The notes under the pieces were generated by a model. The model saw only the letters and a program-made list of their open reading frames with translations, searched no databases and was not told the origin of the DNA. DNA of 64,000 bases, from contig DYJD01000001.1 in NCBI GenBank assembly GCA_020723325.1, forward strand, positions 186,001 through 250,000, in the 5' to 3' direction. This stretch comes from Desulfosudis oleivorans (lineage in GTDB: Bacteria; Desulfobacterota; Desulfobacteria; Desulfobacterales; SURF-7). Each line of letters begins with the position of its first letter. The first letter of the stretch is position 1. The position numbers and the translations under genes are program-made. Shown in pieces: positions 28,190 to 55,717 of this stretch.

Positions 28190-28429
28190 CGCGCCGGAAT
28201 TGATCGCCAAGCTCAGATGGTTCAAAAAAGACCTGCCGGCCGGTTGGGGGAAATCGACTATGTGATCCGGCACGGGACCAAAGTCGTTCCAGTGGAAGTC
28301 AAGTCCGGCGCTGCCGGCAAAATGAAATCCCTGCATCAATTCATGGCCGAAAAAAAGCTGGATTTGACGGGCTATCGCATTTTAGAAAAAACTTGTGTTT
28401 ATAAAACAATTACTGCTGGAACTGGTTGA
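28190..28429 (+). pseudogene. Remnant of a DUF4143-type AAA ATPase C-terminus
   Basis: From 28217 one frame encodes GRLGEIDYVIRHGTKVVPVEVKSG and MKSLHQFMAEKKLDLTGYRI, the characteristic nuclease-like C-terminus of archaeal-type ATPases with DUF4143 (E-I-D-Y...E-V-K-S-G). The preceding bases carry PELIA in another frame, so at least one frameshift is present and the ATPase part is gone. The 3' end overlaps the metallopeptidase gene on the opposite strand. Bases 27971-28189 hold only the palindromic repeat. Confidence 0.6.
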
Positions 28430-30979
28430 GCGACTATCCCCCACAACGGCAAACTCGCCGAATTTGCTGACGATAGCTGTCAGCTTGCCGGTCTGGCTGC
28501 GATCATAAGTGGAGGTGCCGACGGCATTCTCAGCCTCGATATCCTGCCATTGGCCGCTGCTCTGGTTGTAACGGTATATTCGTAAGGTGTCCCCATTAAC
28601 AGAGCTGGGCAAATCCTTTGCATAATCTATGGTCACTGTGACCGGTGCATTCAGCGAATCCACATGGTTCCATTGATCGTCACTGCTGGCTGTCTGGGCA
28701 TTCAAGCTGAAAAAACGTCCGAAAGTTGCAAGACCGGGTGGGCGGGTGGTCGTGCTCGGCTGGGCCAGGGCTTCAAACATGATAAAGGTATCGGCGTCCA
28801 CAGCTTGCTTGGGAATTTTGATGTCAGTGTTCAATTCCTTGTAGTGATTGGACAGCAGGGTGTCATTGCTGTTTCCGTTTTCATTTGGAATAAAATCATA
28901 CGTGATGTTGCCTACTTTTATAGTAATGCTGCCGGTGGCGTTGAGACCGGCGCTGTTGGTGGCCGTCAAAGTGATGGTATGTTCCCCCATTCTGAGACTG
29001 TCGGTAATTATCTGGGGCCCGGTTCCGATGGGTCCGTCCAGATTGGAAGTCCACTGTAAATTGTCTGCAGCAATAACGTCATCCTGCAGATCGGCGCTCT
29101 CCGCGCTCAGGAGGACTTCGTCGCCTTCCTCGTAGCTGTCGCCCCATTCCGGATCATTGATGAAAATTTCAGGCGCCTTAAAGGGTACTGTGAATTCAGC
29201 GCTTTCACCGGTGGCGGAAAGAATACCGTCCGTGGCGGTTACCCGTATTTTGGCATGGTCGCCGCCCGGGAGTTCGCTGAAATTTTCTTCCCATAGCTGC
29301 GTATCTGTGTCACCGGTCAGCACGATCCATGGGGATTCCGCATGGTTGATATTCGGGTTGTATTCAACGCTGTAAGTCAGGATATCGTTGTCTGCATCGC
29401 TTGCCGACCAACTGATGGTATAATTGCCGGTAATGGATGTGGATACCAGCGGCGTTACGCTGTTGATCATGGGGATATGCGCACTGACCGGAATGGAAGC
29501 CAGTAGCTCATTATTTTTCGTAATGACAAAAGCGCTGGTATTATCCGGAAAGCGCATGGCGCCTTCAAACGGCGCCCAATCGATTTTTTTAATGGGTTCC
29601 GGCGGAGTGCTTAAAATATAAAATTGTGGATCAAGTTTCCGGCTGGCCAGGACAGCACTGCTTGCATCAATGGCCGATAAGGTGTAGGTGCCGGTGCTGT
29701 CACTGATTTCAGCCGTGTCGCTAAAGGACTCCCACGGTTCGATTCTTGTCGATCCGGCTTCGTCGATATAGCCGAAAAAATGAATGAAACGCTGGGTACT
29801 TAAGGCGGATTTTAAATGGGTGGCGGAACGGACAGGCGGAACAAGCTGTTCAAATAGATGGTCATAGGTTTCCTGGGAAGTCCAGAATTGATTTAAGAGA
29901 CCGCCCGAGCCCATATAGCAAGCCATATCTCCCAGCTCTCCACGCCCGCCGACCTCATAGGGATGAACTTCCTTGGGAATTTTCGTCGCACTGATTTGAT
30001 CCAGGGCCATACGTCCCTGGCTGCACGAAGTCATGGATTCAGGATTGTCCCAGTTTCTGCCGGTGAATCCATCCGGAGCCGGATTGACGCTGCAGCGCAG
30101 GGAGCCGCCGTTATACGTGTCGCCCACACCAAAAACATGGGCGATTTCGTGGGCCACCGTGGCCGGTGCATCTTCATCCGTGGCCACGACAATGTTCGTG
30201 GGTTTTCCGTAGGTGAATCCCTGCAATCTCCCGTTGGGATATGTGTTGGGTCGATCGGAAATGAAGCCGACGATGAGATCGTAGCAGCCCTCGCCGTTGG
30301 GATCCTTGGCGCAGCTCAAAGGCATCAAATTGGTCAGATCCTGCCAAAGCTGGCTTTGTCCGGCATCGGTTTCCAGATTATATTTTTCGGCGGAAGCGTC
30401 AAATTCACCGCGGGTTTCCCAAATCAATTGATCCTCTGCCACCGGATACACTTTAGCGGTAAAGGCATACATGGATTTCCATTTATCATTCGGCAATTGT
30501 GTGATGACGCCGTTATAGTTGGCCTTTACCGGTATCGCCAGAATGCGCAACTTTTTTCTTTCCTTGAAAATGTAACTACTGGAAGCTCCTTGGGCCGGTT
30601 CGCTTTTTTCAACACCATTAACTTTCACGTTGAATTGATAAGTTCCTGCTGCCCAATTGCCGCAATCCGTGCGATTGCGGCAAAGGAAGTCGACTGTTTT
30701 GGTGGGTTTGTCATAGGATTTGGCTGAAAGAGTCGCCACCAGATTGTTGTCGCGATATACTTGGGCTGAGGAATTGGTTTGATCCACCACTACTTCTTCA
30801 GAGAGAAAGGCGCGGACAACAGTGTCCTTTCCGGCCACGAAATTATAATGATTGTCTTTTTGAATTCCCAGTACCTGATTGATTTCCACTGATTCAATTT
30901 GAAGGGCATAAACCGGAATGCAAAAAATGAAAATGATCCAAACGGCTGTTTGAAAAAATGATCCGATCCAGTTTTTCAT
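28382..30979 (-). CDS. Secreted metzincin-type metallopeptidase with Ig-like domains
   Basis: 865 residues. Signal peptide (AVWIIFIFCIPVYA). An N-terminal beta domain, then a zinc peptidase with HEIAHVFGVGD (His277, Glu278, His281, Asp287), an HExxHxxGxxD variant of the metzincin signature; the Asp may replace the third His. Fibronectin/Ig-like domains follow (SASDADNDILTYSVEYN; LSAESADLQDDVIAADNLQWTSNLDG has PKD-like spacing), then a 150-residue tail. It ends SSSSNCFINTSFF, which looks like the start of a CFI-box C-terminal sorting domain cut short. Probably exported; substrate unknown. Convergent with the DUF4143 remnant. Confidence 0.82.
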   Translation of the reverse strand: MKNWIGSFFQTAVWIIFIFCIPVYALQIESVEINQVLGIQKDNHYNFVAGKDTVVRAFLSEEVVVDQTNSSAQVYRDNNLVATLSAKSYDKPTKTVDFLCRNRTDCGNWAAGTYQFNVKVNGVEKSEPAQGASSSYIFKERKKLRILAIPVKANYNGVITQLPNDKWKSMYAFTAKVYPVAEDQLIWETRGEFDASAEKYNLETDAGQSQLWQDLTNLMPLSCAKDPNGEGCYDLIVGFISDRPNTYPNGRLQGFTYGKPTNIVVATDEDAPATVAHEIAHVFGVGDTYNGGSLRCSVNPAPDGFTGRNWDNPESMTSCSQGRMALDQISATKIPKEVHPYEVGGRGELGDMACYMGSGGLLNQFWTSQETYDHLFEQLVPPVRSATHLKSALSTQRFIHFFGYIDEAGSTRIEPWESFSDTAEISDSTGTYTLSAIDASSAVLASRKLDPQFYILSTPPEPIKKIDWAPFEGAMRFPDNTSAFVITKNNELLASIPVSAHIPMINSVTPLVSTSITGNYTISWSASDADNDILTYSVEYNPNINHAESPWIVLTGDTDTQLWEENFSELPGGDHAKIRVTATDGILSATGESAEFTVPFKAPEIFINDPEWGDSYEEGDEVLLSAESADLQDDVIAADNLQWTSNLDGPIGTGPQIITDSLRMGEHTITLTATNSAGLNATGSITIKVGNITYDFIPNENGNSNDTLLSNHYKELNTDIKIPKQAVDADTFIMFEALAQPSTTTRPPGLATFGRFFSLNAQTASSDDQWNHVDSLNAPVTVTIDYAKDLPSSVNGDTLRIYRYNQSSGQWQDIEAENAVGTSTYDRSQTGKLTAIVSKFGEFAVVGDSRSTSSSSNCFINTSFF

Positions 30980-39841: not shown

Positions 39842-42505
39842 TTGCTGATTCAATATCCGGTATGGGACCTCTCGGCCTGGGGCGGCGGCCTGCTCATTGC
39901 CTTGATCGCCACTGTCCATGTTTACGTGGCTCATTTTGCGGTTGGCGGCGGTTTTTTTCTCGTGTGGACCGAACGCAAGGCCTTGTGTGAAAATTCAACG
40001 GCCCTGCTGGTCTATGTCAAGGCCCACACCCGTTTTTTCCTGCTGCTCACCATGGTGTTCGGGGCCTTGACCGGGGTGGCCATCTGGTTCACCATCGGCC
40101 TGCTGAATCCTGGGGCCACTGCCGAACTGATCCGTCTTTTTGTATTTGCCTTTGCCGTTGAATGGGTCTTTTTTTTGTGCGAGATCATCGCCCTGTTCAT
40201 CTATCATTACACCTTTGACACCATGGAATCCGGTCGGCACATGCAGATCGGCTGGATTTACGCGGCTTCCGCTTTTTTATCCCTTTTCATCATCAACGGC
40301 ATTATCGCTTTTATGCTCACTCCCGGCAAATGGCCGGCCTCCGGGAATTGGCTGCATGCCTTTTTCAATCCAACCTTTGTGCCCGCGCTTTTTTTCCGTT
40401 TTTCCATGGCTCTGATCCTGGCCGGCATCTTCGGCCTGATCACCGCCGTGTGCATGCAGGACAAGGCTTTGCAGGCTACCCTGTGGCGCTATTGCGCCAA
40501 ATGGATGCTGTATCCGTTTTTGCTTTTGGTTGCGGCCACCATTGCCTATGCCAAATTTCTTCCTGGGCCCCAGACAGCCATGATCTGGGAGCGTTCGCCG
40601 GAAATCCGGCCTTTTTTGAAGATTTTCGCCGTAACCGGCGGGAGCGTTTTCATCATGGGCTGCCTGATGTTGGGCATGGGCTGCCGGCCGCTTGTAAAAA
40701 AACTCACGGCCCTGGTCCTGATCCTTTTGGGATTTGGTTTTCTGGGGGCTTTTGAATGGATCCGGGAAGCCGGCCGCCGGCCCTATATTCTCTATGGGCT
40801 CATGTACTCGAATTCCGTAAAGGTGCGGGACCTGGAGAAGATCGCCGAGCAGGGCATCCTGGCCTCGGTGCGCTGGATAAAATCCCGGCGGATCGAACCT
40901 GATAATCAGATGGAAGCCGGCCGCGAGCTTTTCAAGTTTATGTGTTCCGGCTGCCATTCCATCGGCGGACCCATGCATGATATCAGGCCCCTGACCCGCA
41001 AATTTTCCGTGGCAGCCATGCAGGTGATGCTGGAAGGCCTGGGCAAGGTCAACAATTACATGCCGCTATTTCCTGGAACCAGGGCGGAAAAAGAAGCCCT
41101 TTCCATCTACATTGTGAAGGAATTGAATCAAACCCACTCCCCGGTGGAAAAGCCGGTTGAACAGCCCGGCCCCCGGGCTTTTGAACAGCCGGGTTTTGAT
41201 CCGCAAAAGGATGAATATGTTCTCTTGGCCTGGTGCGATCAGGGCCTGTATTTTCTCTCTGATAATGATCGCTATTTCAGTTTGTCCCCGCCGGGGGTGG
41301 ATCTGAATGCCCAGTTGATCCGGCGGGGGGAATCACCGGCGATCATAAGCCACGGGGTTGAAATCACCTATGCCCTGGAGCCGGGGTTTGAAGCGCCGGC
41401 CCGGCAATCGGAGTACTGGCGTCATGCCCAGGCCTTGACCGGCAAAACCCTGCCCCTGAATCAGGGCCTGTCCGGCAAAGGGCTCCAAGACCGAATGGAA
41501 CCGGCCGGGGAGGGCCAGGCCTTCATCGCCCAGGGGATTCCGGTGGTTCCCTATACTAGCTCAGGGGAATTTCATCCCTATCCCTTGGCCCTGGTGACGG
41601 CCAGGGAACGCGATTCCGGGCGCCTGCTGGCCGCCACCCGCTGCGTCCTGCCGGTTTCAACGGAAATGGGCTGCCGCCATTGCCATGGCGGACCATGGCG
41701 CGTCGCTGACACCACGGGTATCTCAGACCGGACAGCCGAGGATATCCTTACGGTCCATGACCGTATCCAAGGCACTAGGCTGTTGGATGAGGCGCGCAAG
41801 GGCCGTCCGCGCTCCTGCAGCGAATGTCATGCTTCCAAGGGGGATGCCAGCGGCCGCGCTCCATCCGGCACCCTCAATCTTTCCGCTGCCATGCACGGTT
41901 TGCATGCCAATTATCTCACCGGCCGGAAAGGGGAGGCTTGTCTGCTCTGCCATCCGGATGCACCGGATGGATTCACCAGGGGCGCCCGGGATATTCACCA
42001 TAAAATAGGCCTGGATTGTACCAATTGCCACGGGCAATTGGAAGATCACGCCATCGGCCTGCTGGTGAACGAACTCAATGCCGGAAAAAAAGGCGCTGAA
42101 ATCCTCATGAAACACTTGACGCCGAAAATGACAGACGATATCAATAAGATATCAGCCCGAAAACCGTGGCTGAACCAGCCGGACTGTCTGAGCTGCCATC
42201 GGGAATTTCAACCGCCGGATTCGGATCAGGTGGAGCTCAACCAATGGTCTGCCGGCAGGGCGCACTTGTTTCAACAGCGCACAGATGAAGTCGGCCTGCG
42301 CTGTCCGGCCTGCCACGGGAGCCCCCATGGGTTGTATCCGGCCGACAATATTTTCGGGTTGAACCGGGACAATGTTCAATCCGTCCAGTACCAGGGGCAA
42401 CCATATCCCCTGGGTGCTGACCGGAACTGTAAAGTGTGCCACACCATGGACATGCCGGCGGAAATTCATCATCCGAACATGCTGGGTATGTTTCGTAATC
42501 GCTGA
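39842..42505 (+). CDS. CydA-like membrane domain fused to octahaem cytochrome c
   Basis: 887 residues. Residues 1-320 hold about eight helices of the cytochrome bd subunit I family (VHVYVAHFAVGGGFFLVWTER with two His; FAFAVEWVFFLCEIIALF with two membrane Glu as in CydA). A cytochrome c domain follows with CSGCH at 368-372. Residues ~560-887 carry seven further CxxCH sites: CRHCH, CSECH, CLLCH, CTNCH, CLSCH, CPACH, CKVCH. The protein therefore has eight c-type haems and probably b/d haems, with the haem tail on the periplasmic face. It could take electrons from periplasmic donors or link quinol to a periplasmic redox pool. Bd relatives with fused haem c (OR-C type) are known; the seven-haem tail is the uncommon part. 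Confidence 0.85.
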   Translation: MLIQYPVWDLSAWGGGLLIALIATVHVYVAHFAVGGGFFLVWTERKALCENSTALLVYVKAHTRFFLLLTMVFGALTGVAIWFTIGLLNPGATAELIRLFVFAFAVEWVFFLCEIIALFIYHYTFDTMESGRHMQIGWIYAASAFLSLFIINGIIAFMLTPGKWPASGNWLHAFFNPTFVPALFFRFSMALILAGIFGLITAVCMQDKALQATLWRYCAKWMLYPFLLLVAATIAYAKFLPGPQTAMIWERSPEIRPFLKIFAVTGGSVFIMGCLMLGMGCRPLVKKLTALVLILLGFGFLGAFEWIREAGRRPYILYGLMYSNSVKVRDLEKIAEQGILASVRWIKSRRIEPDNQMEAGRELFKFMCSGCHSIGGPMHDIRPLTRKFSVAAMQVMLEGLGKVNNYMPLFPGTRAEKEALSIYIVKELNQTHSPVEKPVEQPGPRAFEQPGFDPQKDEYVLLAWCDQGLYFLSDNDRYFSLSPPGVDLNAQLIRRGESPAIISHGVEITYALEPGFEAPARQSEYWRHAQALTGKTLPLNQGLSGKGLQDRMEPAGEGQAFIAQGIPVVPYTSSGEFHPYPLALVTARERDSGRLLAATRCVLPVSTEMGCRHCHGGPWRVADTTGISDRTAEDILTVHDRIQGTRLLDEARKGRPRSCSECHASKGDASGRAPSGTLNLSAAMHGLHANYLTGRKGEACLLCHPDAPDGFTRGARDIHHKIGLDCTNCHGQLEDHAIGLLVNELNAGKKGAEILMKHLTPKMTDDINKISARKPWLNQPDCLSCHREFQPPDSDQVELNQWSAGRAHLFQQRTDEVGLRCPACHGSPHGLYPADNIFGLNRDNVQSVQYQGQPYPLGADRNCKVCHTMDMPAEIHHPNMLGMFRNR

Positions 42506-47086: not shown

Positions 47087-47911
47087 TTATTTTTTCCCAC
47101 CGAATCTAAAATTGATCTTGGTTTTCCAAAAGCTTTTTTTCACCGTGGGAACTTCAATGGGCAGATCCGGCTGGCCGTTCAAGCGGTAAGCAATGCGCCG
47201 CAAGGCTTCACCAGCCTTGGAATCCTTTTGGGTAACCAAGGGCACGCCGGTATTGGTGGATATCACCACTTGTTCATCCATGGGAACCAGGCCGATCAGA
47301 TCAATGGAGAGAATATCCACCACGTCTTCGTGGCTGAGCATATCCCCCCGTTCAACCATTTCCGGAACAATGCGGTTGACCACCAGCTTGGGCGTGATGG
47401 AACGGGCATACAGCAGGCCGATGACGCGATCCGCATCCCGGACCGACGACACCTCGGGGGTGCAAATCACCACCGCTTCATCGGCCGCGGCCACGGAATT
47501 CTGGAAGCCTTTTTCAATCCCGGCCGGACAATCCAGCAGAATGAAATCAAATTCCTTTCTGAGTTTTTCGCAAAGATTGGTAATCTCTTCCGTGGTCAGG
47601 ACATCTTTATTGTCGCTCTGGGAAGCGGGGATCAGAAAGAGATTGTCAATCTTTTTGTCTTTAATGGCAGCCTGCTTGATTTTGCAGCGCCCCTTGGCAG
47701 CATCCACGATGGTATAGACGATGCGGTTTTCAAGTCCCAATAATACATCCAGATTACGCAAACCGATATCCATATCAATGACTGCCACACGATTGCCTTC
47801 CATGGCCAAGGCAGCGCCGATGTTGGCTGTGGCCGTGGATTTGCCGACGCCGCCTTTTCCGGATGTGATCACAATGGTTTTCCCGTTCACGTTGCACCTC
47901 GTCATGTTCAA
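47087..47911 (-). CDS. minD: Septum site-determining ATPase MinD
   Basis: 274 residues. Deviant Walker A GKGGVGKSTATANIG, NLDVLLGL, LLDCPAGIEKG and a basic/aromatic C-terminus (KKSFWKTKINFRFGG) as membrane-targeting segment. ParA-superfamily ATPase that recruits MinC to the membrane. Confidence 0.97.
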   Translation of the reverse strand: MNMTRCNVNGKTIVITSGKGGVGKSTATANIGAALAMEGNRVAVIDMDIGLRNLDVLLGLENRIVYTIVDAAKGRCKIKQAAIKDKKIDNLFLIPASQSDNKDVLTTEEITNLCEKLRKEFDFILLDCPAGIEKGFQNSVAAADEAVVICTPEVSSVRDADRVIGLLYARSITPKLVVNRIVPEMVERGDMLSHEDVVDILSIDLIGLVPMDEQVVISTNTGVPLVTQKDSKAGEALRRIAYRLNGQPDLPIEVPTVKKSFWKTKINFRFGGKK

Positions 47912-47961
47912 ATTTTTATCAAAATACGGTTACAGAATGAGTCCGTTGCAGCAAGCCGGGG

Positions 47962-48654
47962 CTATCTTTTTTCAGGCCAAGGCAGTTTGCTGAACGGGCC
48001 GGCTTCCAAATAATCATCCACGACAATGGCGTTGTTTTCCACATGGGCGAATTCCGCCTTTTGTTTTGGTGCGCCGGGAGGTCCGGCTGCCACCAAGGGG
48101 CCGATTTGGATTTGGCTCGGCCGGAAATCCAGGGCAAAAATAATGGCATTGAAATTTTCTGGTTGTCCGCAGGCGGCAATGCCGCGCAGGCTGCCCAGTA
48201 CCACAATATCGCCGCCGGCAATAATTTCCCCGCCGGGATTTACATCCCCCATGAGAACCAGGTGTCTTTTGGCCGTGATTTTCTGGCCGGAGCGAACCCG
48301 TCCGGCCATCATCAGGACCTCGCTTTGATTGGTGTTCCAGCAGGTATCCAATTCTCTTTGCCGCATCCGCGCCTTTCTTGCCGATGGTCTGGGGGGAATC
48401 CCGGAGACTGATCCGACTTTAAAATTTTCTTTTAAATAGGCTCCCAGGGTCTTGACCAGGTTTTCATCCACAAGCCCTTCGCCGGTATCGATGACCACCC
48501 TGGCATTGATGGAAAGATGGTTAAGGGGCTGGAATATTTTTTTCAATTCCTGTTGCAGCAGTTCTGCGGATTGGGACGGATCAATTACCACGCGAAGACC
48601 GTCGCCCACACCTTTCAGTTGCGCGATTGCTTTGTTTTGATTTGCTTCCATCAT
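47962..48654 (-). CDS. minC: Septum inhibitor MinC
   Basis: 230 residues. N-terminal domain of the MinC type, then the right-handed beta-helix (SGQKITAKRHLVLMGDVNPGGEIIAGGDIVVLGSLRGIAACG), the hallmark that binds MinD and FtsZ. First gene of the operon behind a consensus promoter. Confidence 0.95.
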   Translation of the reverse strand: MMEANQNKAIAQLKGVGDGLRVVIDPSQSAELLQQELKKIFQPLNHLSINARVVIDTGEGLVDENLVKTLGAYLKENFKVGSVSGIPPRPSARKARMRQRELDTCWNTNQSEVLMMAGRVRSGQKITAKRHLVLMGDVNPGGEIIAGGDIVVLGSLRGIAACGQPENFNAIIFALDFRPSQIQIGPLVAAGPPGAPKQKAEFAHVENNAIVVDDYLEAGPFSKLPWPEKR

Positions 48655-50373: not shown

Positions 50374-50982
50374 TCATGGAGCGGGAATTTCCCACAAAAG
50401 ACCCTTTGGTCCGGCATTGACAATAATGGTTTCTCCAAGCCGGTGACTGGCACCGGCGCTTTCATGGATGTGGCCGCATACATTTAACCAGGGGCTTTTG
50501 TCCATGATGGTTTGATGAACAGCCCGGCTGCCGAAATGACGGCCGCCCGAGGAAATATCCACATATCCGAGTGGCGGGGAATGGGTTACCAGAATCGCCC
50601 CTGGCGGGCAGGGGGCCAGCAATTCCAGGGCATCCTCCTCGGAAAAATCATAACTCCATGAACCAAAAGGCGTGACCGGGATGCCGCCGCCCACCCCAAA
50701 AAAGAGGCGGCCGGAAAGTTCAACGCTGTTACCATGCAAGACATGGACGTTCGGCCAATCCCGGCAGGCTGCTGCCAGTTCTTCCAGACTTTCGCTGTTT
50801 CCGGGAACCAAAACCATGGGTGTTTGAATGGGTCGCAACATGGTCATGGTTTCCTGCAAGCCTTTGCGCATCAGACAAAAATCGCCGGCGCCCACAATGA
50901 CGTCCACGGCGGTGGAGCGTCTCACCAGATCACGGCAGTAGGTTTCATTACAATGGATATCGCTGAAGAGCAGCAGTTTCAT
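50374..50982 (-). CDS. Calcineurin-like metallophosphoesterase
   Basis: 202 residues with the two-metal phosphoesterase motifs: LLFSDIHCN (DxH), VGAGDFC (GD), VPGNSES (GN), VTHSPPLG (H) and VCGHIHES (GHxH). Related to YfcE/MJ0936-type phosphodiesterases. Last gene of the minus-strand operon with the hybrid kinase; target phosphoester unknown. Confidence 0.9.
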   Translation of the reverse strand: MKLLLFSDIHCNETYCRDLVRRSTAVDVIVGAGDFCLMRKGLQETMTMLRPIQTPMVLVPGNSESLEELAAACRDWPNVHVLHGNSVELSGRLFFGVGGGIPVTPFGSWSYDFSEEDALELLAPCPPGAILVTHSPPLGYVDISSGGRHFGSRAVHQTIMDKSPWLNVCGHIHESAGASHRLGETIIVNAGPKGLLWEIPAP

Positions 50983-51018: not shown

Positions 51019-52473
51019 TCAGACCGGATGTTTCTGTTTCCATAAGGTCTCAATCGTTGTCAGCAAATGGTTCGGCTGAATCGGCTTGGCAATATAATCG
51101 TCCATTCCGGCTGATAGGCAGCGCTCGCGATCACCGGTCATGGCATGGGCGGTCATGGCGATGATCAATACCTGGTGATCCCGTACTTTTGAGGACGGAT
51201 CGCGGATGATCCGGGTGGCTTCCAAACCATCCATTTCCGGCATCTGGATGTCCATCAGCACCAGATCATAACTAATACGTTCCAGGACCGCCACAGCTTC
51301 CTTGCCATTGGCCACGGCTTCGGCGCTAAAACCGAATTTTTCCAGCATGCGCAAGGCCAGTTTTTGATTGATGGTGTTGTCTTCGGCCAACAGCACTTTA
51401 AGCTTGCGGCGGCGGCTGATTTCCGAAGCCAGAATCCTCTGGGTACGGAGATCGGTGGGCAGATTCGTTCTGGTTTCAGTGATTACCGGCTGCTTCTCAA
51501 GTCTGGCCGTAAACCAGAAAACTGAACCTTCGCCCTGTTTGCTATTCACACCGACCTTGCCGCCCATCAGTTCCGCAAGTTGTTTGGAAATAGCCAGCCC
51601 CAGGCCGGTGCCGCCGAATTTTCGGGTTGTGCTGGTATCCACCTGGGAAAAGGATTGGAAAAGTCTGCCCAGACGGTCAGGCGGAATACCGATGCCGCTG
51701 TCGGCAACGGAAAAATACAGGGTTACCTGTTGGGCGCTTTCCTGCTCCACCTTGACGCTGAGCACGATGGCGCCGGTTTCCGTGAATTTAACGGCGTTGC
51801 TTAAAAAATTCAGGATAATTTGGCGCAAGCGGCCGGAGTCGCCGCGGAGCAAAAGGGGGGTTTCCGGTGCAATGGAATAGATGAATTCAAGGTGCTTGTC
51901 GCGGACTTGCACGGCCAGCATATCCACGACTTCTTCGATGGTGGTGCTGAGGTTGAAGTCCAGTATTTCCAGTTCAATTTTACCAGCTTCGATTTTTGAA
52001 AAATCCAGGATGTCGTTGATGATGGACAGCAAGGCCTCGGCGCTGCTGCGAATGGTTTCGGCATATTCCTGCTGTTCATGGTTCAGGGCCGTATCCAGCA
52101 GTAAACCACTCATGCCGATGATGCCATTCATGGGGGTGCGGATTTCGTGGCTCATGTTGGCCAGAAAGATGCTTTTGGTCTGATTGGCGGTTTCCGCGGT
52201 TTTTTTGGCTTCAGCCACTTCCTCAATGACCTCGTTCAGTTTTTTTTGCTGGCGGTCATTCATTTTAATCAGGCGTCGGAATTGATTGTAGAGCTTTTTA
52301 TACTGATTAATGAGCCGGGAAAAGGCCTCGGCAAGCGGTGTGTCTTGATCCGTTTGGGCTGCGAGGAGCGATTCCGCTTCGCTGATGGCTTCCTCTTCCG
52401 TCGCGAAAAGATGGTCCTGATTCATGGCGCCTTGTCTTTCACGAATGGACTCCTGCTTGGGATGGTGTTTCAT
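51019..52473 (-). CDS. Cytosolic hybrid histidine kinase (HisKA-HATPase-REC)
   Basis: 484 residues; a Met 17 codons on (52422) is an alternative start. No membrane segment. An N-terminal coiled coil (about 40-105), HisKA with [16 protein letters not shown], HATPase ([32 protein letters not shown]), then a receiver domain ([40 protein letters not shown]). It must take its input from a partner protein, possibly the preceding periplasmic caspase protein or DUF4388 protein. It lies 47 bases after the caspase gene. Confidence 0.93.
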
Positions 52474-52520: not shown

Positions 52521-55217
52521 TTATTTTGTCAATTCTTGAACCCGCTCCCGGGCAAAGGGCGCGCTGGCATGGTTGGGAGCAAGTTCGAGAAAGCGATTAT
52601 AAGCATTGAGGGCCTGAGCGGCGTCGCCCGCAGCTTCCCAGGCACTGGCGATATTCACCCAGGCCACGGCCCGCTGCGGATCAAGGGCCAGGGTGCGCTG
52701 GTACCATTCAAGGGCCTCTTGATTCCGACCCATGCGAAAGTAGACATAACCGAGGTTGTTGGCGATCTGGGCATTGGAGGGTTGCAAAGTAAAAGCTTCC
52801 TGCAAGACTTTCAAGGCTTCGTCATATTTGCGCTCCTTATAAAGGGCCAGGCCTTCGTCTGATTTTTTTCTGACCAATTGGGCATCGGTGGGCGCGACCT
52901 TTTTTTCAGCGGTCTTTTGCAATTCAGCCTGGGCCTGGGCCAATTCTTTGCGGAGCTTTTCATTACGGGCTTTTTTTTGCGATATCTCCCGGCGGATGCT
53001 TTCCAGCCGGCTGTTCAGGCGGATGGCTTCCTCGTCCAATTGGGTGGTCATGGCGCTTAAATACTCGGTGTTGGGACTGAGTTCAAAGACTACATCCCCG
53101 CCGCCGCTGCCCACAAGATTGCCGAAAGCCGGGGTCTGGCGCGAGACGGAGGAGACTGCCGGACCGATATAAGTGAACAGCTCGGAGGCCGTGACCACAT
53201 TATCGGAATTTAGATCGGCCTTGCCTTTAAAACCTTCCAGCAAGGTCCAGGTGAAAACCGAATGGCCGTTGGGTCCGTTGTCGGCCACCTGTTCATCCGG
53301 TCCGCCGGCGGTGAGCATCTGTCTGGCAGTGCGGCGGGTGACCTCCCGGATATATTTGCGGCTTTCCATATTTTCCCCGGCCGGGCCCCCGCGGGTGACG
53401 CCCAGGCCCCCATAGCAGGCATCCATGAGATAGAGGATGTGTTTGGCCGGAATGCTGTCATTGAAATCCTGGAAATTGGTCATGGAGATACACTGGGAAT
53501 GGATGTGTTCCATATCCGCTTCCACCGGTACGATATAGCCCAGGGATTTGCCAGAGGGCAGTTTGCGGGTGGTGCCGTGTCCGGCAAAAAAGATCAGTAC
53601 GCGATCCTCGCTGCCCACTTTGTTCTGATTGCCCAGGGCATCGCCCAGGGCCGCCATGATTCTTTCCCTGGTGGCGTCTTCGTTGAGCAGCAGGGTGATG
53701 TTTTCCGGATTGAAATGAAAGGAAGCCTCCAGCAGGTCCTTGACTGCCAGGGCATCAGCCGTGGCGTAATTGAGACGCGGCCATTTGTGATAGGCATTGA
53801 TGCCGATGATCACGGCAAAGCTTTCCTTGTAAAGCGGCTCGGCCTCGGGCTTGGGGCCTTTTGATTTGCTGGTGGTGCCGGGAAGCAATTCAACGCCGTT
53901 CCAAAGGGCAAAATTAAAACCGTCGCTCTCCAGGGTTTCAAGAATCAAGGGTAAAGCCTCCACGCTGCGGCTGTGAATGTCGTGGAGCAGGATGACGCCC
54001 CGACCTTTTTGACGCGCCTCGGCGATCACCCGGTTGGCAATGGATTTGGGGATGGGGTCGGCCCAATCCTGGGAATCGATATCCCAGAGGAGCAGGTTCA
54101 GATTGCGGGCGGCAAGGGCGGTTTGTAGGGAACCGTCATAGGCGCCGTAGGGCGGTCTGAACAGGCGGCTTTGCCGGTCTTGCACGTGGACGATCATCTT
54201 TTCTGCCAGATCCAGTTCGGTCTCCTGGCGGCGGTCGTCCAGTTTCGGCAGGAATGGATGGGTGAAAGTGTGATTAGCCAGGATGTGCCCTGATTTTTGC
54301 AGTGTGCGCGCTTCCTGGGCCGCCTTGGTTTCTTTGATATCGCCGTCCTTGCCCAGGCGGCCGATGTTTTCACCGACCTCAAAAAAGATCCCTTTGGCCT
54401 GAAACTGTTCGAGTACTTCTTTAATCTTGGGAGTATGCTGCCGATGAGGGCCGTCGTCAAAGGTCAGAACCAGGGTTTTATCCGGCAGACGCGGCACGGT
54501 GGGAGTTTTGCGCTCGGAGCGGGCCGGTTCTTTTTTGGCAGGTGCAATCCGGTGGCCATGTTCGGCGATAATAGCCTTTGCGGAAAACAATGTCCGCAGA
54601 TAGGCAAGGTAGGATTCCCAGCGTTCCCGGCTGATGGTCATACCCCGGGTGGCAAACTGACCGAAGATGGCATCCAGTTCCTTATCATACAAGGCCTGAA
54701 TTTGGGAAAGGGCCGCGCGGTCTTCTTCCAGACGGCGCTTAAGGATTTTGTCAGCCTCCGACACCGGGGCCGCGGTGTTCATTTTTTCAATCAGCGTGTC
54801 AAGCACTTCCTTGAAAGCCAGTTTGTCGGCATCGTGCCATTGAGGATCTTTTTCAAGGCGCAGGAGAAAGGCCGCCATGGGAGGTGTTTCCAGGGCCTGA
54901 ATACTTTTTCCGGAAGAAAGCGCCTCCCAGAGCTGGTCGGCGAGTTTTTCCCTTTTGGGGATGCCTTCCTCAAAAAGTAGTTTGCCGATGATATAGGCGT
55001 TTTTCTGATCGGTCTCGGAAAGGGACGACCGGTCGCTCATGAGTACGATGATCTGGCGAAAGGAGCGGACTATTTCCTCAAGCTGAAGGTCAATGTTAAG
55101 ATCAGAGCCGGTGCTTGCCTTCTCGGTGGTTTCCTGAGCTGAAATATCTTTTCCCACAGTCCCAGGCATGCAGAAGGCAAGAAGACCGATGAATACGATG
55201 CTTTTCAGATGTATCAT
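52521..55217 (-). CDS. NodB polysaccharide deacetylase - caspase-like peptidase - TPR protein
   Basis: 898 residues from the ATG at 55217; an upstream ATG at 55364 would overlap the DUF4388 gene and mask the signal peptide. Signal peptide IHLKSIVFIGLLAFCMPG, so periplasmic or secreted. An all-helical region reaches residue 215. The NodB domain is ~245-435: TFDDGP (Asp254/255), ANHTFTHPF (His316, His320), FRPPYGAYD, LLHDIH. The caspase-like C14 domain is ~465-700: FAVIIGINAYH, catalytic His547 in FFAGHGT, Cys601 in MDACYGG. A coiled coil (725-772) and three TPRs (784-898) end it. Both catalytic sets look intact. It may link peptidoglycan or exopolysaccharide remodelling to regulated proteolysis. 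Confidence 0.9.
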   Translation of the reverse strand: MIHLKSIVFIGLLAFCMPGTVGKDISAQETTEKASTGSDLNIDLQLEEIVRSFRQIIVLMSDRSSLSETDQKNAYIIGKLLFEEGIPKREKLADQLWEALSSGKSIQALETPPMAAFLLRLEKDPQWHDADKLAFKEVLDTLIEKMNTAAPVSEADKILKRRLEEDRAALSQIQALYDKELDAIFGQFATRGMTISRERWESYLAYLRTLFSAKAIIAEHGHRIAPAKKEPARSERKTPTVPRLPDKTLVLTFDDGPHRQHTPKIKEVLEQFQAKGIFFEVGENIGRLGKDGDIKETKAAQEARTLQKSGHILANHTFTHPFLPKLDDRRQETELDLAEKMIVHVQDRQSRLFRPPYGAYDGSLQTALAARNLNLLLWDIDSQDWADPIPKSIANRVIAEARQKGRGVILLHDIHSRSVEALPLILETLESDGFNFALWNGVELLPGTTSKSKGPKPEAEPLYKESFAVIIGINAYHKWPRLNYATADALAVKDLLEASFHFNPENITLLLNEDATRERIMAALGDALGNQNKVGSEDRVLIFFAGHGTTRKLPSGKSLGYIVPVEADMEHIHSQCISMTNFQDFNDSIPAKHILYLMDACYGGLGVTRGGPAGENMESRKYIREVTRRTARQMLTAGGPDEQVADNGPNGHSVFTWTLLEGFKGKADLNSDNVVTASELFTYIGPAVSSVSRQTPAFGNLVGSGGGDVVFELSPNTEYLSAMTTQLDEEAIRLNSRLESIRREISQKKARNEKLRKELAQAQAELQKTAEKKVAPTDAQLVRKKSDEGLALYKERKYDEALKVLQEAFTLQPSNAQIANNLGYVYFRMGRNQEALEWYQRTLALDPQRAVAWVNIASAWEAAGDAAQALNAYNRFLELAPNHASAPFARERVQELTK

Positions 55218-55237: not shown

Positions 55238-55717
55238 TTAATGATTGTCGTCGATCCGCCGCAGTGCATCCATCACCAGTTGGAGCGTGTTCATCTTTAA
55301 CGGTACAATCCAGCGCGTATCCAGATTCATTTCCTTGAATTGAAAAGTTCCGGTTTGCAGGCAAAACATGCTGAAAATGATTTCCTGAACCTGATTATAC
55401 AAATATCGTTCCAGGATTTCGACGGTAATACAGCCTTTCTCAATCAGGGTCTTGCCGATGGCCTGTTTTCTTTCCTTTGAAATGGTTAAACAATCGGTCA
55501 ACTGGGCTTCGGTTACCAGGGCGTCATTGATCAAAAGCTGACCCAGCCGGGAGGGCTTCAAGGATTCAATGGCATAGACAATGGCGCCTTCGAGGAAAAA
55601 GGTCTGAAACTGCATTTCACCATGGGATACCGTGAGGGTTCCGGATTTCCCTTCTTGACTCAATAATTGCAGAATTCCAGCCAGGGAGATGGTTTCAATA
55701 TCACCATGGAGGGTCAA
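55238..55717 (-). CDS. DUF4388 (PATAN-like) domain protein
   Basis: 159 residues: LHGDIETISLAGILQLLSQEGKSGTLTVS, FFLEGAIVYAIESL, RLGQLLINDALVTEAQLTDCL and FSMFCLQTGTFQFKE are the DUF4388 blocks. Such proteins occur with two-component and motility systems and are thought to be adaptor modules. It precedes the caspase protein by 20 bases in the same operon. Confidence 0.85.
   Translation of the reverse strand: MTLHGDIETISLAGILQLLSQEGKSGTLTVSHGEMQFQTFFLEGAIVYAIESLKPSRLGQLLINDALVTEAQLTDCLTISKERKQAIGKTLIEKGCITVEILERYLYNQVQEIIFSMFCLQTGTFQFKEMNLDTRWIVPLKMNTLQLVMDALRRIDDNH

Follow-up and report, generated by a model that had tools for sequence, protein, structure and literature searches.

A deacetylase-caspase-TPR fusion protein in Desulfosudis oleivorans, very probably a divergent Xanthomonas-type metacaspase

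We have analyzed a stretch of 64,000 nucleotides from the genome of Desulfosudis oleivorans (the window), which encodes a single protein carrying a NodB polysaccharide deacetylase, a C14 caspase-like peptidase and tetratricopeptide repeats (TPRs). Judged by its sequence, the protein is almost certainly a divergent member of the family of Xanthomonas-type metacaspases. Both catalytic centers are intact, full-length homologues of the same domain order exist in other genomes, and the genes that flank it differ from those described for the family.

Results

Reading frame and domain organization

The minus strand between 52521 and 55217 contains a single frame of 898 amino acids with no inner stop codons, running from an ATG at 55217 to a stop codon ending at 52521, and corresponding to a protein of 100.2 kDa. 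The longest mechanical open reading frame over the gene starts at a TTG at 55364; the ATG is preferred because that start aligns with those of the homologues. The features of the gene are as follows.

52521..55217, minus strand: fusion coding sequence, 898 aa, with export-like segment, helical N-terminal domain, NodB deacetylase, C14 domain and TPRs; has full-length homologues
55131..55217, minus strand: residues 1-29, hydrophobic segment resembling an export signal, from the sequence
54510..55100, minus strand: residues 40-236, mostly helical N-terminal domain, nameless in Pfam and PDB; 30-35% identity with homologues
53907..54488, minus strand: residues 244-437, CE4/NodB polysaccharide deacetylase with intact motifs (Pfam, alignment, PDB match 2c1g)
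53841..53906, minus strand: residues 438-459, linker with K451, K453 and K456; putative self-cleavage region
53103..53840, minus strand: residues 460-705, C14 caspase-like (orthocaspase/metacaspase) domain with H547 and C601 (Pfam, alignment)
53181..53216, minus strand: residues 668-679, EF-hand-like loop (pattern) that may bind calcium
52536..52859, minus strand: residues 787-894, at least three TPR repeats (Pfam)

Pfam assigns Polysacc_deac_1 to residues 244-369 (E 1.3e-26), Peptidase_C14 to residues 467-696 (E 7.2e-19), and TPR_2 together with further TPR models to residues about 787-894. The fusion of NodB, C14 and TPRs proposed in the first-pass annotation is thus borne out by the single 898-aa frame, the Pfam domains and the collinear homologues described below, and the hydrophobic segment at residues 1-29 gives the protein the export-like N-terminus which that annotation had expected. 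For the N-terminal domain (residues 40-236) no trustworthy match was found in Pfam or the PDB, and a profile of it matched one of 77 genomes, the window's own. AlphaFold2 run on the window protein alone, as a single sequence, gave a mean pLDDT of 43. The window genome contains seven C14 matches above the Pfam cut-off.

Catalytic residues, linker and N-terminus

The deacetylase domain contains the CE4 motifs TFDDGP (D254, D255), H316/H320 and FRPPYG (R354), and in addition D381/W385 and H412/D413, which we take to complete the CE4 set. Presumably D255, H316 and H320 form the metal triad, D254 is the catalytic base, and R354 and H412 are the residues of motifs 3 and 5. D254, D255, H316, H320, R354 and H412 are all present, and the domain is predicted to be an active deacetylase. 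The C14 domain has its H547-C601 dyad, with D599 two residues before the cysteine. An aspartate at that position in C14 metacaspases and orthocaspases provides a basic P1 pocket, and we assume that D488 and D599 form the basic S1 pocket here; calcium-dependent Arg/Lys peptidase activity is predicted. FDDGP, HxxxH, RPPYG, H547 and C601 lie where the first-pass annotation had placed its two intact catalytic centers. When six sequences were joined to the 23 aligned homologues described below, 26 of the resulting 29 agreed with the window protein at thirteen catalytic and pocket positions, the remaining three being without one region.

An EF-hand-like pattern was found in all 21 C14 domains of the fusion family (counting the window protein and a single fragment of the broken gene in G837, described below), compared with 25 of 45 other C14 domains. 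The loop is widespread in C14 domains, which counts against a mechanism involving a calcium response.

The linker between the deacetylase and C14 domains contains two to four Lys/Arg residues in each of the 24 sequences counted, and a computed cut at these residues in the window protein leaves a C-terminal part of 48.9-49.4 kDa. These residues are weak evidence for cleavage because Lys and Arg are frequent in linkers generally. At the N-terminus, Cys16 aligns with the lipobox cysteine of the homologues and is invariant in 12 of 12 alignment rows. It is preceded by Phe, making this a non-canonical lipobox. Full-length homologues in L118 and L119 have no evident lipobox, so lipid anchoring is not general among the homologues.

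Homologues in other genomes

Relatives were found in three sets of genomes. In the phylum of genome G767, that of locus L030 (Pseudomonadota, by the C14-domain tree), 11 of 398 genomes matched at 1e-25, comprising five full-length homologues (42-43% identity), one broken gene and five single-domain matches. In the order of G859, 23 of 250 genomes matched at 1e-60, four of which are already among the matches of the G767 phylum. The order of G1148 gave six matches in 180 genomes: three full-length, one truncated by the start of its contig, and two with the N-terminal and NodB parts alone. Both catalytic regions occur in one frame in 26 distinct genomes besides that of the window. In 25 of these the best segments extend from residues 12-69 to residues 886-896 with 40-45% identity, and in one more the match reaches residue 793. 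The genome of the window probably belongs to another phylum than the homologues found in mnmE context, as 397 genomes searched in the phylum of G767, besides G767 itself, lay outside all of the sets searched before.

The broken gene, in a genome of 2.7 Mb (G837, contig C7:69-2487), is a homologue split into two open pieces, the N-terminal and NodB piece having three stops within the matched stretch. At L110 the frame is lost before the TPRs and FDDGL replaces FDDGP; a motif filter left this locus out of the alignment, which comprises the window protein and 23 homologues. Between the window protein and those 23, identity is 32-35% in the N-terminal region, 39-45% in NodB, 52-55% in C14, 22-38% in the segment between C14 and the TPRs, and 44-49% in the TPRs, where 28 of 112 positions are invariant in the family.

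The N-terminal and NodB domains also occur in proteins lacking C14 (L114 and L115). Genes of this kind, at L116:3510-4880 and L117:4011-5630, combine an N-terminal domain of the window type with NodB, with no caspase match in the frame.

No relative was found on viral contigs, and the four plasmid records obtained at E 1e-20 each match a single domain. A scan of genome contigs returned 16 loci at which every match was to NodB only; as it relied on six short peptide patterns and did not pick up the family found later, its silence means little. None of 144 genomes of the Myxococcota (the phylum of G769 by the C14 tree) matched at E 1e-45, a result that is likewise weak.

The window's own order and phylum

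The window protein was searched against 59 relatives, 389 genomes of its own order and 395 of its own phylum; these sets share members, and the genome of the window is one of those searched. Of the 69 loci retrieved, only the window's own, which is represented twice among them, had NodB and C14 in one frame. The best other matches in the order and phylum are to C14 only, with at most 47% identity, and the few matches in the 389 own-order genomes that lie outside the 69 loci have their best segments in C14. In these searches 2 to 15 candidates were scored per genome at E limits of 1e-30 to 1e-45, several genomes being incomplete; a full-length homologue of the kind found in the other genomes, with E below 1e-160, would have passed those limits. 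No second such fusion turned up in the genomes of its order and phylum that were searched, which is a modest novelty.

Phylogenetic trees

A tree was built from 66 C14 domains, after removal of duplicates and of matches spanning fewer than 180 model positions, with the G837 pieces counted as fusion. The window protein and its fusion relatives lie together there on one side of a branch with support of 99/97. The NodB tree does not resolve the fusion proteins as a clade, although a topology that unites them is not rejected (p-AU 0.133). In this tree L114 and L115, which lack the caspase, are near the fusion proteins, and the branch to the window protein is long. The NodB tree excluded 11 near-copy fusion loci and NodB matches under 150 positions, and left the G837 pieces unlabelled.

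Comparison with known proteins

A 2012 report defines the Xanthomonas-type metacaspase from 17 sequences in which a polysaccharide deacetylase (PF01522) is combined with a metacaspase and, except in some TPR-less members, with one to three TPRs; they come from Xanthomonas, Xylella, Stenotrophomonas and two Acidobacteria (PMC3501461). According to that report, the dyads are intact in all of the type, the Xanthomonas members are 97-100 kDa, and the gene lies beside trmE, with yidC and rnpA close by, in three gammaproteobacterial genera. The homologue of X. campestris pv. glycines is there tied to programmed cell death, and possible auto-processing is suggested from a 55 kDa caspase compared with a gene product of about 100 kDa. 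The first-pass annotation, which knew of no described system joining these domains, fails on this point, since a family of the same architecture, an outcome for which it had itself allowed, was in print in 2012 (PMC3501461). No further publication recognizable as dealing with a NodB-C14-TPR fusion was found in a search that covered few subscription journals.

The window protein carries PF01522, metacaspase and TPRs in that order in one chain, at about 100 kDa and with an intact Cys-His dyad (H547, C601), like the family as described. The alignment and the C14 tree (99/97) indicate common descent over the full length with the homologues in trmE context, the NodB tree being compatible with this but not resolving it, and it is on this grouping with yidC-mnmE-context homologues that the protein is filed under the Xanthomonas-type metacaspases. 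Its link to the published sequences themselves is by architecture and gene context. Of 27 homologous loci, the 23 in which relatives of yidC and mnmE/trmE flank the gene all belong to the order of G859, and MnmE/TrmE, YidC and DnaA were confirmed by Pfam at L087; four loci of the order of G1148 make up the rest, and yidC and mnmE were not found in the DNA examined there. The gene in the window is not in an operon with trmE (mnmE), its neighbors being DUF4388, kinase and phosphoesterase genes. We treat that operon as non-defining because it is printed for three gammaproteobacterial genera, and the two Acidobacteria were typed by architecture (PMC3501461). Compared with the homologues in mnmE context, the window protein is 40-44% identical, with a non-canonical lipobox and different neighbors.

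Among solved structures, the nearest chain to the NodB domain is the CE4 peptidoglycan GlcNAc deacetylase PgdA (PDB 2c1g, E 4.3e-30), although the NCBIfam PgdA model gives 105 bits on the window protein, far under its cut-off of 800 bits, and the window protein has caspase and TPRs in addition. Nearest to the C14 region, and very distant, are Metacaspase-9 and Metacaspase-4 (PDB 8a53 and 6w8s, E 2e-4 to 6e-4), presumably plant proteins, whose descriptions nowhere mention a deacetylase domain, unlike the window protein.

Gene neighborhood

The fusion gene is accompanied by three genes on the same strand, assigned by Pfam.

55238..55717, minus strand: DUF4388 protein, 159 aa; upstream neighbor, 20 bp gap to the fusion
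51019..52473, minus strand: hybrid histidine kinase (HisKA, HATPase_c, receiver); downstream neighbor, 47 bp gap
50374..50982, minus strand: calcineurin-like metallophosphoesterase; downstream neighbor, 36 bp gap

These are the neighbors named in the first-pass annotation. The operon that it suggested does not hold as a general context. In 38 homologue-bearing loci, which range from 3 to 15.5 kb with most near 5.5 kb, tblastn at 1e-3 found no relatives of the DUF4388 protein or the phosphoesterase, and the kinase matched at L113 alone, in its receiver part only. Residues 57-109 of the DUF4388 protein match an MshE-related c-di-GMP-binding motif (NF053729, 42.6 bits, cut-off 38).

With a gap of 20 bp, the DUF4388 gene is possibly co-transcribed with the fusion. 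Promoter-like sites lie at the junction of fusion and kinase (52532-52504) and within the DUF4388 gene (55422-55394), so that co-transcription of all four genes is a candidate only. Both promoter-like sites (6 against 3.7 expected) and terminator-like sites (11 against 8.4 expected) occur in numbers near the shuffled level.

Signaling and cell-wall genes occur beside two relatives. At L113:1507-3011 a homologous fusion gene, its 5′ part missing, overlaps a response regulator gene by 4 bp; next comes a sensor-like gene whose match to Cache falls short of the cut-off. At L116 a HAMP-GAF-GGDEF gene follows the caspase-less gene, with a D-Ala-D-Ala carboxypeptidase gene two genes from it. Together with the c-di-GMP motif these are hints of signaling and cell-wall links, each a single case.

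Elsewhere in the window, a ParA/MinD-like ATPase gene adjoins a gene with a MinC_C domain (47087-48654, minus strand), an 865-aa ORF (28382-30979, minus strand) has no Pfam match at 1e-5, and an ORF at 39842-42505 (plus strand) matches cytochrome bd subunit I near one end and a multihaem cytochrome near the other.

Discussion

The mechanism that we propose joins an exported deacetylase of the envelope to an Arg/Lys protease that would respond to calcium and cleave its own chain. Most likely the protein would be exported and act in the envelope, where the CE4 domain would strip N-acetyl groups from polymers of GlcNAc or MurNAc, peptidoglycan being the first candidate. The C14 domain would be a calcium-responsive, Arg/Lys-specific orthocaspase that, on activation, might cut the Lys/Arg-containing linker behind the deacetylase, giving two halves, the N-terminal and NodB part of about 50 kDa and the caspase-TPR part of about 49 kDa; partners or substrates may be selected by the TPRs. 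We infer from the sequence that the protein is exported, has both activities, responds to calcium and cleaves itself, and likewise its substrate and a possible connection with cell death or envelope stress. Self-cleavage appears the likeliest mode of action, and the computed C-terminal part of 48.9-49.4 kDa is not far from the 55 kDa caspase given in PMC3501461. The existence of the caspase-less L114 and L115 indicates that the N-terminal and NodB half can stand alone. The non-canonical lipobox, the position of the gene away from mnmE and the NodB tree, in which the fusion proteins form no resolved clade, count against our explanation. The mechanism as a whole is tentative, with somewhat less than an even chance of being correct; family identity and mechanism taken together, in a judgment that blends the two, are our best explanation and rather probable. 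An extension is more speculative and improbable: a two-step envelope switch in which a second-messenger or phosphorelay signal, by way of the DUF4388 protein with its c-di-GMP motif and the hybrid kinase, and a rise in calcium would lead to the linker cut and so release or switch a peptidoglycan deacetylase, the caspase-less proteins being switchless versions.

The caspase might instead trim other envelope proteins held by the TPRs and spare its own chain, with a constitutive deacetylase and a fusion that serves co-location only. The invariance of 28 of 112 positions in the TPR region would suit this, as would the stand-alone N-terminal and NodB proteins, whose deacetylase half needs no cut from a caspase. 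Self-processing is weakly favored over it both by the linker Lys/Arg in 24 of 24 sequences and by the smaller caspase species reported in PMC3501461, and we regard the trimming of other proteins as unlikely, if a serious competitor. An anti-phage or cell-suicide module, in which stress detected by kinase, phosphoesterase and DUF4388 protein would lead to killing of the cell by the caspase, is less probable still. PADLOC matches its 'caspase' model to the fusion (E 7e-15) and the candidate defense model PDC-S10 to the phosphoesterase at 50374-50982 (E 5.4e-25), but these are generic or candidate families; and the connection with programmed cell death that PMC3501461 makes for the Xanthomonas protein has to be set against the export-like N-terminus, the housekeeping yidC-mnmE context of 23 of 23 loci in the order of G859, and the failure of the three neighbors to recur together in 38 homologue loci.

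The absence of a second fusion among the genomes searched from the window's order and phylum might suggest that two genes had been merged by an error of sequencing or assembly. The identical domain order, at full length, in many other genomes makes this exceedingly improbable; these collinear homologues exclude chance or a mis-join, and we have rejected sequence error as the cause of the fusion.

The Xanthomonas-type metacaspase has been in print since 2012. What is new here is modest: a differing neighborhood of DUF4388 protein with c-di-GMP motif, kinase and phosphoesterase, and the caspase-less relatives. The family thereby gains a divergent member from the window, those relatives, and an alignment that covers its catalytic and linker residues. 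With them it becomes possible to test a simple question, whether the deacetylase is freed or controlled by the caspase domain.
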